In this document: one piece after another, positions 11,210 through 32,718 of the stretch
Position numbering within the stretch: the first letter of the stretch is position 1
Layout of the letters: the number at the start of each line of letters is the position of its first letter
Notes under the pieces: generated by a model
The model's database searches: none
Seen by the model: only the letters and a program-made list of their open reading frames with translations
Told to the model about the DNA's origin: nothing
Program-made: the position numbers and the translations under genes
Assembly (NCBI GenBank): GCA_005881155.1
Contig: VBHN01000049.1
Location: 1 to 40,328, forward strand
Length of the DNA stretch: 40,328 bases
Direction of reading: 5' to 3'
From: Chloroflexota bacterium
Lineage (GTDB): Bacteria > Chloroflexota > Dormibacteria > Dormibacterales > Dormibacteraceae

Positions 11210-12772
11210 TTCGTTTGTCCTTCCCCGCCCACTCCCGGTCGCGGAGGACGAACTTCTGGATCTTGCCGGTCGAGGTCTTGGGCAGCTCGCCGAACTCGAT
11301 CGACTTGGGCGCTTTGAAGTGCGCGATCCGCCCGCGGACGTGCTCGATGATCTCCTCGGCGGTGGCGGTCTGACCCGGCTTCAGCACCACGAACGCCTTC
11401 GGCACCTCTCCCCACTTCTCGTCCGGACCGCGATCACCGCGCACTCCATCACGGCGGCGTGAGAGGCGATCGCCTGCTCGACCTCAATCGTCGAGATGTT
11501 CTCGCCGCCCGAGATGATGATGTCCTTCTTTCGGTCGCGCAGCTCGATGACCCCGTCGGGGTGCATCACGCCGACGTCGCCGGAGTGGAACCAGCCGCCG
11601 CGGAAGGCCTGCTCGGTCGCCTCCGGGTTCTCGAAGTAGCCTTTCATGACCACGTTGCCGCGCATCACGACCTCGCCCATCGTCTCGCCGTCCGCAGGCA
11701 CGTTCTTCAGCTCCTCGTCGACGACGCGGACCTCGCCGGCCAGCGAGTTGGGGTAGCCCTGGCGGGCCCGGAGGCGCGCCTGCTGCTCTGGCGGCAGCTC
11801 CTTGAACCCGGCCGCCGCCACGTTGATCGTGAAGGGTCCGTAGGTCTCGGTCAGGCCGTAGACGTGCTCGAGCTGGAAGCCGAGCTCGGACATCTGGGAG
11901 ATGATCGTCGGCGAAGGCGGCGCCCCGGCGGTGAAGAGCCGGACGGGCCGCTCGAGCTTTTTCGCGTGCGGGTCGTTGACCAGCATGATCAGGACCGTCG
12001 GGGCGGCGCAGAAGCCGCTCGCCTCGCCCCGGGCGAACAACCCCCAGACCTCGGCGGGGTCGATCTTCGGGATGCAGATGCTGCGACAGCCGACGGCGGC
12101 CATCCCCCAGGTGAAGGTCCAGCCGTTGCAGTGGAACATGGGCAGCGTCCACAGGTAGCTGGAGTCCTTGTCGAGCTTCAGGTCGTTGACCATCGCCATC
12201 GCGTTCAGGTAGGCGCCGCGGTGGTGGTACATGACCCCCTTGGGGCGCCCGGTGGTGCCGGAGGTGTAGTCGATCGCGATCGTCTCGTACTCGTCCTCGA
12301 GCCATGTCTCGACCGGCTCCTCGGAGCCGGAGGCTAAAAGGGCCTCGAACTCGGGGCCCAGCCGGATGCGGCGGACGTCCCCGGGCACGGCCGCCAGCTG
12401 TGGCTCGAGGTCGGGCGAGACGAAGATGAAGCTCGAGCCGGAGTGCTCGACGATGTAGGCGATCTCGTCCGGCGAGAGTCGGGTGTTGATCGCGACCAGG
12501 ATCCCACCGGCCTGCGGGACGCCGAAGTGAGCTAGCAGGAGCGGTTCGGAGTTCCAGGCCAGAAAGGCGACCCGGTCGCCCTTCTCTAGGCCCGACGCGC
12601 GGAGCGCCGAGGCGAGGCGGCGGGAGCGGCCGCGGAACTCCCTCCAGTTGTAGCTGACGCTCCCGTCGACCACCGCCTCGCGGTCCGCGTAGACCTCGCC
12701 GGCGCGCTCGATCCAATTGATTGGCGTGAGCTCCTCTCGGAAGACGCTGGTGGCGCTCTTCTCAGTGATCAT
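11202..12772 (-). CDS. Acyl-CoA synthetase (AMP-forming), broken by one-base frameshift
   Basis: Reads as one gene of about 523 residues in two frames: the N-terminal 450 residues from ATG 12772, and the C-terminal 75 residues ending at 11202. The ATP loop YTSGTTGRPKGV, the core YGLTETYG, GEVVMRGNVVMKGYFENPEAT, GGWFHSGDVG and RDRKKDIIISGGENIS are in the first frame. PKSIEFGELPKTSTGKIQK, with the catalytic Lys, is in the second. One lost base near 11425 (a GG that should be GGG on the plus strand) explains the shift: restoring it joins AVMECAVIAV to PDEKWGEVPKAFVV. The enzyme activates a medium- or long-chain fatty acid to its CoA ester. A GAGG site precedes the ATG, and it is last in a three-gene operon. 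Confidence 0.85.
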
Positions 12773-12785
12773 GGCTGCCTCGAAA

Positions 12786-14012
12786 TTATCCCTCCACGCG
12801 GCGGAGCCGCTTCGACTTCAACTCCGAGCGCGGGAGGGTGCCGGCGGGGACCTCGCGCGAATCGACCCGCGCGCTCAGCGCCTGACGCAGCTCGGCGGAC
12901 AGGCGCTCCGAGAGGCCCGGCGACGGGGCCGTGACCTCGAACAGCAGGGTCACCTCGTCCATCCGCCTCACCGTCCGCTGCTCGATCAGGAACTCGTCGA
13001 CCTCGGGATGGCGGCGGACGATCTCCTCGACCTGGCTCGGGTAGAGGTTGACACCACGGACGGTGAACATGTCGTCGACGCGGCCGAGAATGCCGCCCTC
13101 GAGCTTGGCGAACTGGCTTCCGCAGGCGCAGGGCGCCTCGCTCAACCGGACTCGGTCGCCGGTCCGGTAGCGGATCAGGGGCGAGCCCCAGCGGCCCAGG
13201 TTGGTGGCGATCAGCTCGCCATCGGGGGACACCTCGAAGATGAACTCGGTCTGGACCAGGTGGAGGCCGCCGCCGGCCGCGCAGCCGAAGCCGGTGGGAC
13301 CTAGCTCGGTCATGCCCGAGTGGTCGTAGACGCGCGCGCCGAAGGACCGTTCGATCAGCTCCCGGGTGGCGCTGATGCTGCCTCCCGGCTCGCCCGCGCA
13401 GATCACGGCCCGGACCGCGGAATCCGCCAGCGGCAGTCCCAGCTCCCCGGCCACCTCCGCCAACCGCAGCGCGTAGGTGGGCGTGCAGCAGATGGCGGTG
13501 GCGCCCAGCTCGAGGATCGCCCGAGCCCGTTGCTCCGACGTCATCGCCCCGCCCGAGATCGCCATGGCGCCCAGCCGCTCAGCACCGCAGAAAGCGGACC
13601 AGAAGCCGATGAAAGGGCCGAAGGAGAAGGCGCAGAAGACCCGGTCCCGAGGACCGACGCCGGCGGCCGGGAAGACGTGCTCCGCCCACACCCGCTCCCA
13701 CCACTCCCAGGACTCGGCCGTGTCCAGCCAGCGCAGCGGCCGGGTGCCACTGGAGCCCGAGGTTTGGTGGAGTCGGACGTAGTGGTCGATCGGGTAGGTC
13801 AGGTTGCTGCCGAAGGGTGGCTCGGCCTCCTGGTCGGCGACGATCTCCGCCTTGCTCAGCAGCGGCAGGCGCTGGAAGTCCTCCCAGCTTTCGACCAGGT
13901 GCAGGCGATCCCGATAGAAGGGGTTGCGGGCCAGCACCTCCGGCAGCCGCTCGCGCAGGCGCCGGAGCTGGTCAGCTCGGATCGCGTCGGGGGAGACGGA
14001 GGATGCGCGCAT
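12786..14012 (-). CDS. Phenylacetate-CoA ligase-like (PaaK family) AMP-forming ligase
   Basis: 408 residues of the ANL superfamily, PaaK branch. Motifs: HQTSGSSGTRPLRW (ATP loop), YDHSGMTELGPTG (aromatic core), RYRTGDRVRL, CACGSQFAKLEGGILGR and GVNLYPSQVEEIV. The family converts an aryl or alkyl carboxylate, ATP and CoA to acyl-CoA. Cys-x-Cys-Gly-Ser is usual here and may bind a metal. A second, different PaaK-like gene lies at 35842, so substrates probably differ. The start ATG 14012 lies inside the end of the nucleotidyltransferase gene (41-base overlap) and is preceded by CGAGGAC, suggesting coupled translation. Thirteen bases separate its stop from the acyl-CoA synthetase start. Confidence 0.82.
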   Translation of the reverse strand: MRASSVSPDAIRADQLRRLRERLPEVLARNPFYRDRLHLVESWEDFQRLPLLSKAEIVADQEAEPPFGSNLTYPIDHYVRLHQTSGSSGTRPLRWLDTAESWEWWERVWAEHVFPAAGVGPRDRVFCAFSFGPFIGFWSAFCGAERLGAMAISGGAMTSEQRARAILELGATAICCTPTYALRLAEVAGELGLPLADSAVRAVICAGEPGGSISATRELIERSFGARVYDHSGMTELGPTGFGCAAGGGLHLVQTEFIFEVSPDGELIATNLGRWGSPLIRYRTGDRVRLSEAPCACGSQFAKLEGGILGRVDDMFTVRGVNLYPSQVEEIVRRHPEVDEFLIEQRTVRRMDEVTLLFEVTAPSPGLSERLSAELRQALSARVDSREVPAGTLPRSELKSKRLRRVEG

Positions 14013-14904
14013 AGTCCTCGGGGGTGTCGATGTCGTCGGGCAGGCCCTGGGCCGGAACAGTATCCAGCAGCTCAGGGCGGGAGCCGAGCAGCTGGCGGGC
14101 GCCGGCATCCCCGTCGAGCTTCATCAGCTCCGGCCAGAGGGAGCGTTCGAGCACCACCGGCGGGCGCCAGTCGCCGCCGTAGGAGGCGGCCACGGCGGGG
14201 CGGGACTCGTCGCCGCGCCAGGCCCGGAGCAGCATCTCGACCGTGCGGCCGCCGACCAGCGGCTGGTCGCCGAGGAGGATGCAGGCGCCGGCCGCGGTCG
14301 CGGGCAGGTTCTCGAGCCCGATCTTCAGCGACGAAGCTTGGCCGGCCGCCGCCCCCGGGTTGTGGATCAAGGTGGCGAGCCCATCCAGGGCGGCGGCCAC
14401 CTCGGGCCGCGAGTAGACGGCCCAGATGCCCTGGCAGCCGCCCTCGGCGGCCGCGCTGACCGCGTAGCGGACCAGGGGCACGCCCTCGTAGTCGAGCAGC
14501 AGCTTGTCGCTGCCGGCCTCCTTCATCCGGGTACCGGCGCCCGCCGCCAGGACCAGGCCTGCAACCGGCAGCGCCCAGGCCGCCAGCCGGTCGGCGGGCG
14601 GGCGGCTGCTGTTCAGCCATTCGGCCTCGGCCCCCGCCTGCCACGCTCGCGCGACGAAGTCCCGCATCCGGGAGCCGTCCGACTCGCAGACCAGGACCCG
14701 GCGGTCCTTGAGGGCGCCCAGCTCGGGCAGCTCGTCGGGCACCCCCAGCAGCCCCAGGCCGGAGCAGTCGGCGCGGTTGCGCAGGTGCGTGAGGGCCGCG
14801 CCGAGGTCTGCCGCGGCGGCGACCACCACGTGGGGATCGTCGGGCTCTCGAAAGACGCGACCCCGCATCGGGTAGTCGAGGGGGCTCAGGAAGAGGACGC
14901 TCAC
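13972..14904 (-). CDS. MobA/MocA-like molybdenum cofactor nucleotidyltransferase with extra N-terminal domain
   Basis: 310 residues. The C-terminal 195 residues form a MobA-like NTP transferase: LAAGAGTRM at 119-127, the Lys134 of SDKLLLDYEG, LLGDQPLV (metal-binding Asp) and the late DIDTPEDYARIL. Enzymes of the MocA type add CMP to molybdopterin to make MCD, the cofactor of CO dehydrogenase-type enzymes. The cox cluster begins less than 1 kb away, which supports this role. Residues 1-110 form a separate domain I do not recognise, with VVVAAAADLGAALTHLR and VLVCESDGSRMRDFVARAW. GTG at 14904 is 9 bases after a TACTTT box; the longer open frame upstream is the shadow of endonuclease IV. Confidence 0.75.
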   Translation of the reverse strand: MSVLFLSPLDYPMRGRVFREPDDPHVVVAAAADLGAALTHLRNRADCSGLGLLGVPDELPELGALKDRRVLVCESDGSRMRDFVARAWQAGAEAEWLNSSRPPADRLAAWALPVAGLVLAAGAGTRMKEAGSDKLLLDYEGVPLVRYAVSAAAEGGCQGIWAVYSRPEVAAALDGLATLIHNPGAAAGQASSLKIGLENLPATAAGACILLGDQPLVGGRTVEMLLRAWRGDESRPAVAASYGGDWRPPVVLERSLWPELMKLDGDAGARQLLGSRPELLDTVPAQGLPDDIDTPEDYARILRLPRRDPS

Positions 14905-27373: not shown

Positions 27374-28798
27374 GTGCGCGAGCTGACCCTCCTGGAGGCC
27401 GTCCGGGAGGCACTCCGGGAGGAGCTGGAACGAGATCCCCGGGTGCTCGTCTTCGGCGAGGACGTGGGCCGGCTGGGTGGCGTCTTCCGCGCCACCGAAG
27501 GCCTGCAGTCGCGCTTCGGCACGGATCGGGTGGTCGATACCCCGATGGCCGAACTCTCCATCGCCGGACTGGCGGTGGGCCTGGCCATGCGCGGCCTGCG
27601 GCCGGTCGCGGAGATCCAGTTCGCCGACTTCATCCACGCGGCGGCAGACCACCTGGTCGGGGAAGCTGCCAAGATCCGCTACCGGACCGCCGGTGACTGG
27701 ACCTGCCCGCTGGTGCTGCGCACCGCCTACGGTGGCGGCTTTCGGGGCGGTCCCTACCACTCGCAGTCGGTCGAGGCCTTCTACGCCCATGTCCCCGGTC
27801 TCAAAGTGGTCGCGCCGGCCTTCCCGGCCGACGCGAAAGGCCTGCTGACCGCCTCCATCCGGGATCCGGACCCGGTCCTCTTCCTCGAGCACAAGCTGAC
27901 CTACCGGCGCGTCCGCGGGCCGGTGCCGGAAGGTGAGCACCTGGAGGAGATCGGACGGGCTCGGGTGGTCCGTACCGGGGACCAGGTGACGATCTGCGCC
28001 TACGGGATGATGCTGCACGAGTCGCTGGCGGCGGCCGAGGCGCTGGCCGCCGAGGGAGTCGAGGCGGAGGTCCTCGACCTGCGGACTCTGCTCCCGCTGG
28101 ACCGGGACGCGATCCTCGCCTCTGTTCGCCGAACTGGCCGCCTCTGCGTCGTGCACGAGGACACCCTGACCATGGGGCTCGGCGCCGAGGTGGCGGCGCT
28201 GGTCTGCGAGGCAGCCTTCGAGGAGCTGAAGGCGCCTCCGGTGCGGGTGGCCATGGCCGACATCGGCGGCATCCCCGTCTCCGACCCCCAGGAGGACGCC
28301 GCGATCCCAGACCGGCACCGGATCGCGGCGGCTGTGCGCGGCTTGGCCGGCCGCAGCTCCAGGCGCGGTCGATCCGCGGCGCCGGCGGCTTACGACGCGG
28401 TAATCCCGGCCGCGGCGTCGGTGCTGGAGGTGGCTCTGCCAGCCGAGCACCTGGAGCGCGTGCTGGCCGCGGTGGTCGAGGCCTGCGGCCGCTTCCCCGC
28501 CTGCAATGCCGAGTTCACCTGGGACGGAATCCGCCTGCACCCGGAGGTCCGGCTCGACCTCGACCTGGGGCCCCACGCCCCCGCCCGGGGCGGCGGCACC
28601 TTCACGGTCGTCGACTACGGGGCCGGGTCCTCGCTCCTCGGCCTGCCTGCGGTCCGGCCGGGGCAGACCGCCGCGCTCCGGGTGGGCTCCGTCCGCCAGG
28701 GCCGCGCCTGGCTGGCGCTGAGCGTCGACCACCGGGCGGTCGACGGCGGCGAGGCCGGCCGCTTTCTCGGCTGCGTCAAGGAGCTGCTCGAGGCATGA
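27374..28798 (+). CDS. 2-oxoacid dehydrogenase E1 beta fused to a short E2-type acyltransferase catalytic domain
   Basis: 474 residues. Residues 1-325 are a normal E1beta (transketolase-type pyrimidine domain and C-terminal domain): VLVFGEDVGRLGGVFRATEG, RVVDTPMAELSIAGLAVGLA, IQFADFIHAAADHL, LRTAYGGGFRGGPYHSQSVE. After a linker, residues 345-474 match pieces of the E2 catalytic fold: VLEVALPAEHL, FPACNAEFTWDGIRLHPEVR, GGGTFTVVDYGAG, then LALSVDHRAVDGGEAGRFLG with the catalytic His453 and Asp457. The central helices and the GLxVPV strand of a full E2 domain are absent. E1beta normally stops at about 325 residues. Start GTG 27374; the end overlaps E1alpha by ATGA. The separate E2 gene lies at 31864. 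Confidence 0.85.
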   Translation: MRELTLLEAVREALREELERDPRVLVFGEDVGRLGGVFRATEGLQSRFGTDRVVDTPMAELSIAGLAVGLAMRGLRPVAEIQFADFIHAAADHLVGEAAKIRYRTAGDWTCPLVLRTAYGGGFRGGPYHSQSVEAFYAHVPGLKVVAPAFPADAKGLLTASIRDPDPVLFLEHKLTYRRVRGPVPEGEHLEEIGRARVVRTGDQVTICAYGMMLHESLAAAEALAAEGVEAEVLDLRTLLPLDRDAILASVRRTGRLCVVHEDTLTMGLGAEVAALVCEAAFEELKAPPVRVAMADIGGIPVSDPQEDAAIPDRHRIAAAVRGLAGRSSRRGRSAAPAAYDAVIPAAASVLEVALPAEHLERVLAAVVEACGRFPACNAEFTWDGIRLHPEVRLDLDLGPHAPARGGGTFTVVDYGAGSSLLGLPAVRPGQTAALRVGSVRQGRAWLALSVDHRAVDGGEAGRFLGCVKELLEA

Positions 28799-29659
28799 AC
28801 CTGGTCGAGGCCTACCGGGTGATGGCGCTGGCCCGGCGGCTGGACGAGCGGATGTGGCGGCTGGCGCGGGCGGGCCGGGCCCACTTCGCGGTGCCCTGCG
28901 CCGGCCACGAGGCGATCGGCGCCGGCTATGCGCTGGCGCTCCGGCCGGGCTTCGACTTCATTGCGCCCCATTACCGCGACCTCTCCGCCATGCTCGCGCT
29001 GGGCATGGCGCCCGAGGAGGCTTTGCTGAGCTTCTTCGGGAAGGCCGACGACCCCAACTCCGCCGGTCGCCAGCCGTACGCGCACTGGAGCTCGAGCCGG
29101 CTCCGGGTGCTGCCCCAGCAGGGCCCGCAGCCGAACCACGTCAGTCACGCTGTCGGCGCCGCCTGGGGCAGCCGGCTGCTGGGCGAAGGCTCCGTCACCT
29201 GGGTCGCCTTCGGCGACGGTGGTGCGCAGAAGGGCGAGGTCCACGAGGCCATGAACTTCGCCGCCATCCACCGGCTGCCGGTCGTGTTCTGCATCGAGGA
29301 CAACCGCTAAGATGCCCGGGGTCGCGGTCGACGGGATGGACGTCGAGTCCGTCCACGAGGCCGCCGTGAAGGCAATCGAGCGCGCTCGAGCGGGGGACGG
29401 GCCGACGCTGGTCGTGGCGAGCTGCTACCGGTTCCTGGGCAACACCTCCAACGACGACGACAGCCGTTACCGCGACCCGGCCGAGGTCCAGGAGGCGCAG
29501 CGCCGGGACCCTCTGCTCCTCCTCCGAGAGCGCATCGACCCGGCCCGGGCGGAGGCCCTCGACGAGGAGGCCTTGACAGCGGCCGAGGAGGCTGCCGAGT
29601 GGGCCGAGGCGCAGCCCTACGGCGATCCCGAGACGATCGCGCGACATACCTACGCATAG
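28795..29659 (+). CDS. 2-oxoacid dehydrogenase E1 alpha, broken by a short deletion
   Basis: Two frames of one gene. From ATG 28795: MNLVEAYRVMALARRLDER to VVFCIEDNR, with the thiamine diphosphate motif GDGGAQKGEVHEAMNF up to Asn in EDN. A TAA at 29308 then ends the frame. The rest resumes at 29312 as MPGVAVDGMDVESVHEAAVK, through GPTLVVASCYRF to the stop at 29657-29659. Homologues have about 25-30 residues between these parts, including the YAIS/ P-loop region that orders the active site. A deletion with a change of frame is the likely cause. If genuine, E1 would be inactive or made of two chains. It is co-transcribed with the E1beta fusion. Confidence 0.8.
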
Positions 29660-31863: not shown

Positions 31864-32718
31864 GTGGATTTCCTGCTCCCCAGGCTGGCCGACACGCTGG
31901 TCGAAGCCACCGTCTCCCGCTGGCTGAAGCGGACAGGGGAAAAGGTCTCGAAGGGGGAACCGCTGGTCGAGGTCGAGACCGACAAGGTCAACTCCGAGCT
32001 CGAGGCCCCCGTCGAGGGCGTGCTCAACGAGATCCTGGTGCCCGAGGGCGAGACCGCGCCGGTCGGGGCGGTGCTGGCGCGGATAACTGAAGCCGGCGAG
32101 GCAGCTGATACGTCGCGCGAGGCCAAGGCCCCCGCAACCGCGGCGGCCGCCAGGGGGGTAGGCCGCGCGCAGTCCGAGCCGAGCACGGCCGACAGGGGGG
32201 ACGTCCCCCCTTCCGAGGGCGGGCTCTCGACGATGCGGCGGCGGATCGCGGAGCGCATGCAGGAGGCGCGCGCCACCATCCCCCAGGGCGCCTGCCGCAA
32301 GGGGGGCTGGACGGCGTACTTCGTGAAGGCCCTGGCCATGGCTGCCGGCGCCGACTCGATCGGCGTCGCCGTCGAGGTCCCGGAGGGCCTGCTGGTCCCG
32401 GTTGTCAAGGGCGCGACCACCAGCTCGACGCAGGAGATCTCGGCGCGCGTCGGCGACCTCGCCGAGCGAGCCCGTCAGAACCGCCTTCAGCCGGCCGAGG
32501 TGAGCGGCGGCGCCTTCACCGTGACCAACGTCGGCGGCGGCGGCGCGCTGCTGGCCTTCCCGCTCGTCAACCCCGGCCAGCCCGGCATCCTGGCGCCGGG
32601 CGCGGTCGGCTCCGACGGCCATTGCTTCGTCACCTTCTGCTACGACCGCCGCGCCTACGACGACTACGCCGCCGACCGGCTGCTGGCGCGCGTGGAAGAG
32701 GAGCTGGCCCGGCTTTGA
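31864..32718 (+). CDS. Lipoyl-domain E2-like component with degenerate catalytic domain
   Basis: 284 residues. Residues 1-75 are a lipoyl domain with Lys41 in EVETDKVNSELEAP as the lipoylation site. A linker of about 40 residues follows; no peripheral-subunit-binding domain is seen. From residue 121 an E2 catalytic-type domain begins (LSTMRRRIAERMQEAR) with AYFVKALAMA, GVAVEVPEGLLVPVVKGA, SARVGDLAERARQNRL and GGAFTVTNVGGGG. Missing are the first strand, the PxxN...WDG segment and the catalytic motif: DHRxxDG is replaced by DRRAYDD (residues 261-267), so the His is Arg262. It cannot work alone as a normal acyltransferase. The stop overlaps the next start as TTGA. GTG 31864 is 33 bases from the divergent lipoprotein start. 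Confidence 0.8.
   Translation: MDFLLPRLADTLVEATVSRWLKRTGEKVSKGEPLVEVETDKVNSELEAPVEGVLNEILVPEGETAPVGAVLARITEAGEAADTSREAKAPATAAAARGVGRAQSEPSTADRGDVPPSEGGLSTMRRRIAERMQEARATIPQGACRKGGWTAYFVKALAMAAGADSIGVAVEVPEGLLVPVVKGATTSSTQEISARVGDLAERARQNRLQPAEVSGGAFTVTNVGGGGALLAFPLVNPGQPGILAPGAVGSDGHCFVTFCYDRRAYDDYAADRLLARVEEELARL

Follow-up and report, generated by a model that had tools for sequence, protein, structure and literature searches.

We analysed a window of 40,328 nucleotides (the whole stretch of DNA under study) that encodes two proteins with partial E2 acyltransferase domains: an E1beta with a C-terminal E2 half-core, referred to below as the fusion, and a lipoyl-bearing E2, referred to as the paired E2. 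It is quite likely that the two combine into a single heteromeric acyltransferase core, with the His side on E1beta and the lipoyl/oxyanion side on the E2. We consider it fairly likely that this core is an obligate two-protein E2 without a peripheral subunit-binding domain (PSBD), in which complementary half-domains from two genes, one joined covalently to E1beta, make up one site. The sequences show the general base side (D-H-R..D-G) on the fusion and the lipoyl domain on the E2, which also has the side that borders the lipoyl entrance and holds the tetrahedral intermediate (Thr at the position of Ser551 in E. coli E2p, the adjoining Asn, and GLxVPV). It seems that neither protein should work alone and that together they should rebuild one active site.

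The paired E2 (31864-32718, plus strand) comprises a lipoyl domain, a PSBD-less linker and a half-core with Arg at the position of the catalytic His. The lipoyl domain (31864-32094, plus strand) matches PF00364 over residues 4-74 (8e-19) and contains the lipoylation motif ETDKV, the Lys of which (Lys41) is invariant in 9 of 9 aligned sequences. The half-core (32221-32715, plus strand) contains an RRRIAERM helix, a GLLVPVV-to-RAR segment, TVTNVG and CYDR, and it matches PF00198 with 101 bits (9e-29; cut-off 23) over profile positions 97-222 only. These matches bear out the preliminary description, which had assigned to this protein a lipoyl domain, the RRxIAexM helix and the GLLVPVV strand, and which had correctly noted that the catalytic HxxxDG is missing: the protein reads CYDRRAYDD in place of the usual E2 DHRxxDG, such that Arg262 (in CYDR) occupies the position of His603, and Thr221 (in TVTNVG) occupies that of Ser551. 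Loss of the first strand had been described as well, which holds for the window copy, where approximately 11 residues are absent, but not for the other 13 paired E2s, which retain CxxEVDLSxI. A profile search for the PSBD (PF02817) yielded no match in the E2s of the window, L085 and L080. Within the window, a GHL10 gene and a minus-strand gene lie between the fusion and the E2, and the TGA stop codon of the E2 overlaps a TTG in frame with a GlcD-type gene (32713-32718), a possible coupled start.

The fusion (27374-28798, plus strand) carries Transket_pyr and Transketolase_C domains of PDH E1 beta (NF006667, 334.8 bits; cut-off 321), and its half-core (28382-28795, plus strand) contains an FPACN..WDGI segment, GTFTVVD and VDHRAVDG. 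PF00198 matches this half-core over profile positions 147-225 (6e-10, 39.5 bits; cut-off 23), with Val413 (in GTFTVVD) at the position of Ser551 and His453 in VDHRAVDG. Of the two proteins, only the paired E2 has a lipoyl domain. Structure prediction of the fusion as encoded, together with 13 homologues, returned a low-confidence model (mean pLDDT 60.4).

We compared active-site residues among 30 canonical E2 cores, 14 fusions and 14 paired E2s. The catalytic His is present in 30/30 canonical cores and 14/14 fusions, and Arg replaces it in 14/14 paired E2s; the motif reads D-H-R..D-G in all 14 fusions and D-R..D in all 14 paired E2s. The Asp before the His position and the later Asp are retained in every sequence compared, and the Arg that follows the His is kept by the fusions and not by the paired E2s. 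Ser551 of E. coli E2p marks the oxyanion position; by count in the E. coli sequence we take it to be the first Ser of TISS, where the family alignment places it as well. This position is Ser or Thr in 28 of 30 canonical cores and Thr in all 14 paired E2s, and 13 of the 14 fusions have Val or Ile there. It is followed by Asn in every paired E2 and by Asp in every fusion (14/14 for both). Beyond the active-site residues, the segment losses are complementary in two places: the RRxIAexM helix and the GLxVPV-to-RAR stretch occur only in the E2, and the FPxxN..W..GI stretch occurs only in the fusion. Both proteins retain the H3 helix, the TFT..G strand and the strand that runs up to DHR, and they share three losses: the H2 helix, a hairpin of 12 residues and the greater part of the C-terminal tail, which most rows lack. 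The earlier claim that the fusion keeps "exactly" the three parts missing from the E2 is therefore too strong. Nevertheless, the complementarity goes far beyond chance and recurs in 14/14 pairs. In the solved core of E. coli E2p, one domain contributes H603' and D607', and its neighbour contributes S551 and the lipoyl entrance (PMC8421416). Because the His/Asp side and the Ser551/lipoyl-entrance side divide as they do in that trimer, the split between the two genes corresponds to the split between neighbouring subunits.

Thirteen pairs besides that of the window were found, in MAGs of Dormibacteraeota/Chloroflexi and Eremiobacterota. In the samples searched, both genes occurred in 14 of 549 genomes, and one gene alone occurred in none of the 549. 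Within the phylum of the window, 4 of 400 genomes encode the fusion, and exactly these 4 also encode the E2 at E<1e-130; within Eremiobacterota, 10 of 149 genomes encode the fusion, and again it is these 10 that encode the E2 at E<1e-130. The only other E2 matches that passed the threshold of the search were in G055 and G483, which at 147-157 bits fall within the range of ordinary E2s, as compared with at least 440 bits for paired E2s. Among 60 relatives of the window genome, the fusion and paired E2 were found only in G013 and G006, and an E1alpha of the matching type was confined to the same three genomes, beyond which identity reaches no more than 49-50%. Scanning genome contigs recovered eight true fusion loci (G013, G006, the Chloroflexi MAG L080 and five Eremiobacterota/WPS-2 MAGs, L082-L086). 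The paired E2 accompanies the fusion at all eight, within the same locus except in G006, where it lies approximately 13 kb away. The pair genes adjoin or overlap at most loci, and the Eremiobacterota loci for which the upstream side is covered share the gene order substrate-binding protein (SBP), E1alpha, fusion, E2. At one Eremiobacterota locus (L085), a macro-domain gene and two LDH2-type dehydrogenases lie downstream of the paired E2 (11594-14362). The viral contigs searched contained no relatives of the pair, and the plasmids searched contained ordinary E1beta only. The hosts of the pair are a few uncultured soil bacteria.

The preliminary description had read the two proteins as a mixed core and had named two observations that would count against it, an intact HxxxDG in close homologues of the E2 and a failure of the two genes to co-occur. 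Neither was observed: Arg replaces the His in 14/14 paired E2s, and the genes were always found in the same genomes. With residues that divide just as they do between subunits of the solved trimer (PMC8421416), the mixed-core reading is partly supported. Genes that sit side by side in an operon would co-occur under any common function, of which a shared active site is only one.

Purifying selection acts on both half-cores: between close pairs, dN/dS spans 0.12-0.43 in that of the E2 and 0.10-0.32 in that of the fusion. Co-evolution had also been put forward as a check on the pairing, and there we detected no specific signal: the mirror-tree correlation of distance matrices is 0.89 between the half-cores, which is no higher than the 0.95 and 0.92 of either half-core with E1beta and thus reflects shared ancestry. 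In a tree of 115 shared columns, the two half-cores do not come out as sisters, and those of the fusions lie on a long branch outside the E2s and canonical cores, where long-branch joins are possible; a common origin of the halves by duplication may or may not hold. We also predicted the structure of an artificial joined chain from L085 (9998-11584), in which TGA and TAG were read as glycine, such that the fusion half-core, approximately 70 intergenic residues and the E2 form one polypeptide. This code was chosen only to combine both halves, and nothing suggests readthrough in the organism. Random subsets of rows were tried for its alignment and kept where MAFFT positioned them correctly, and we used only the per-residue confidence and the fold match, setting aside the pTM of 0.42. 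Each half has blocks of pLDDT ~76-97 and matches E2 catalytic domains, a result that says nothing on docking.

In the window, E1alpha (28795-29659, plus strand) overlaps the fusion stop and is present as two ORFs (28795-29310 and 29312-29659); compared with L067, L076 and L080, approximately 68 nt are missing around 29305-29311, and the frame is broken as a result. This break may represent a dead gene or an assembly error, so that the complex is perhaps dead in the window genome, or the assembly is wrong. The window genome additionally encodes three ordinary E2 cores, and ordinary full-length E2s coexist with the pair in 6/6 genomes checked. In G013 (contig C35; L076 2539-3159), a second lipoyl-E2 relative adjoins E1alpha; it is shrunken further and lacks the GLxVPV segment, with CYDR retained. 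Lone lipoyl-domain proteins were observed in G019 (L069 12439-12669), G009 and G012 (L070, L071), and in G016 and G004 (L072, L073), where the protein adjoins an amidase. In G019, G009 and G012, which have no fusion, the lone lipoyl domain is 76-87 residues long and lies between GHL10 and GlcD, the position of the window E2. This arrangement fits half-core loss where the partner is absent, with the caveat that the direction of change could differ.

In the heteromeric core that we propose, an E2 subunit would lie beside a fusion subunit, packed as neighbouring subunits are in ordinary E2 trimers. A single hybrid channel would admit both CoA and the acylated lipoyl arm, and there His453 of the fusion would deprotonate CoA and Thr221 of the E2 would steady the intermediate. 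In a cyclic trimer, an interface would be active solely where the fusion supplies the His side and the E2 the Thr side. Each 2:1 or 1:2 trimer would then have one active site; the other possible form would be a heterodimer that resembles the two-lobed members of the CAT superfamily. Strict 3+3 alternation is impossible within a single trimer. Because E1beta would be covalently part of the core, a PSBD would be unnecessary for holding E1, and its absence fits this arrangement. Likewise, because the C-terminal tails are lost from both proteins, we would expect no large cubic or dodecahedral core. Such a core is dispensable for an E2, as illustrated by actinobacterial AceF, which is a trimer through a change at its C-terminal end (PMC10415282). 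The LDH2-type dehydrogenases at one Eremiobacterota locus and the GlcD-type oxidase in the window suggest that the substrate is a 2-oxoacid made from a hydroxyacid.

Other explanations for the pair place catalysis differently. The fusion half-core could act alone as a homotrimer, with the E2 half-core structural and non-catalytic and the E2 merely supplying lipoate. The complete His motif of the fusion and the precedent of OdhA/KGD, an E1-E2 fusion that receives lipoyl groups in trans from AceF (PMC10415282), speak for this arrangement. We nonetheless regard it as unlikely, as the GLxVPV-to-RAR segment is missing from the fusion and Val or Ile stands in for the oxyanion Ser/Thr in 13 of the 14 cases, and the E2 retains precisely that segment and the oxyanion Thr under purifying selection. 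It is somewhat harder still to accept that both half-cores are dead scaffolds linking E1 to the lipoyl domain, with acyl transfer left to an ordinary E2 or directed to another acyl acceptor: the invariant D-H-R..DG of the fusion and T-V-T-N of the E2 would be unexpected in dead scaffolds, even though full-length E2s are encoded in the same genomes and E3BP is known as an E2 paralogue that serves structurally and is catalytically inactive (PMC10156792). Finally, the disrupted E1alpha of the window and the further shrunken lipoyl-E2 copy in G013 might point to decaying duplicates or a sequencing artefact, which is very improbable given that 14 genomes from two phyla carry this pair, with dN/dS clearly below 1.

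We found no description of such a split E2 among the open-licence papers searched. The proposed heteromeric core shares with homotrimeric PF00198 cores such as E. coli E2p its fold, a lipoyl domain, an inter-subunit site and, for the pair combined, the same catalytic residues; it differs in that two non-identical subunits each lack half the site, the PSBD is absent and the C-terminal tails are lost. Two-lobed CAT-superfamily enzymes (condensation domains, carnitine acyltransferases) contain two CAT-like lobes with the His on one only, but both lobes are on one chain, whereas here there are two chains, one of them fused to E1beta. OdhA/KGD of Actinobacteria similarly combine E1 and E2 activities on one chain and take lipoate from another protein. 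However, they are defined by a single-chain E1o joined to an entire E2 domain, and the fusion falls outside that class, being an E1beta of the alpha2beta2 type that bears half a core. In eukaryotic PDH, E3BP (protein X) likewise is an E2 paralogue without catalytic function in a mixed core, but the E2 beside it is complete and does not need it for activity, whereas here neither part is complete. If the heteromeric reading is true, the pair would be a natural case of an active site divided between duplicated genes through complementary loss, within a 2-oxoacid dehydrogenase that has E1 covalently attached to its core, and it offers a simple way to test how a heteromeric E2 trimer can arise.
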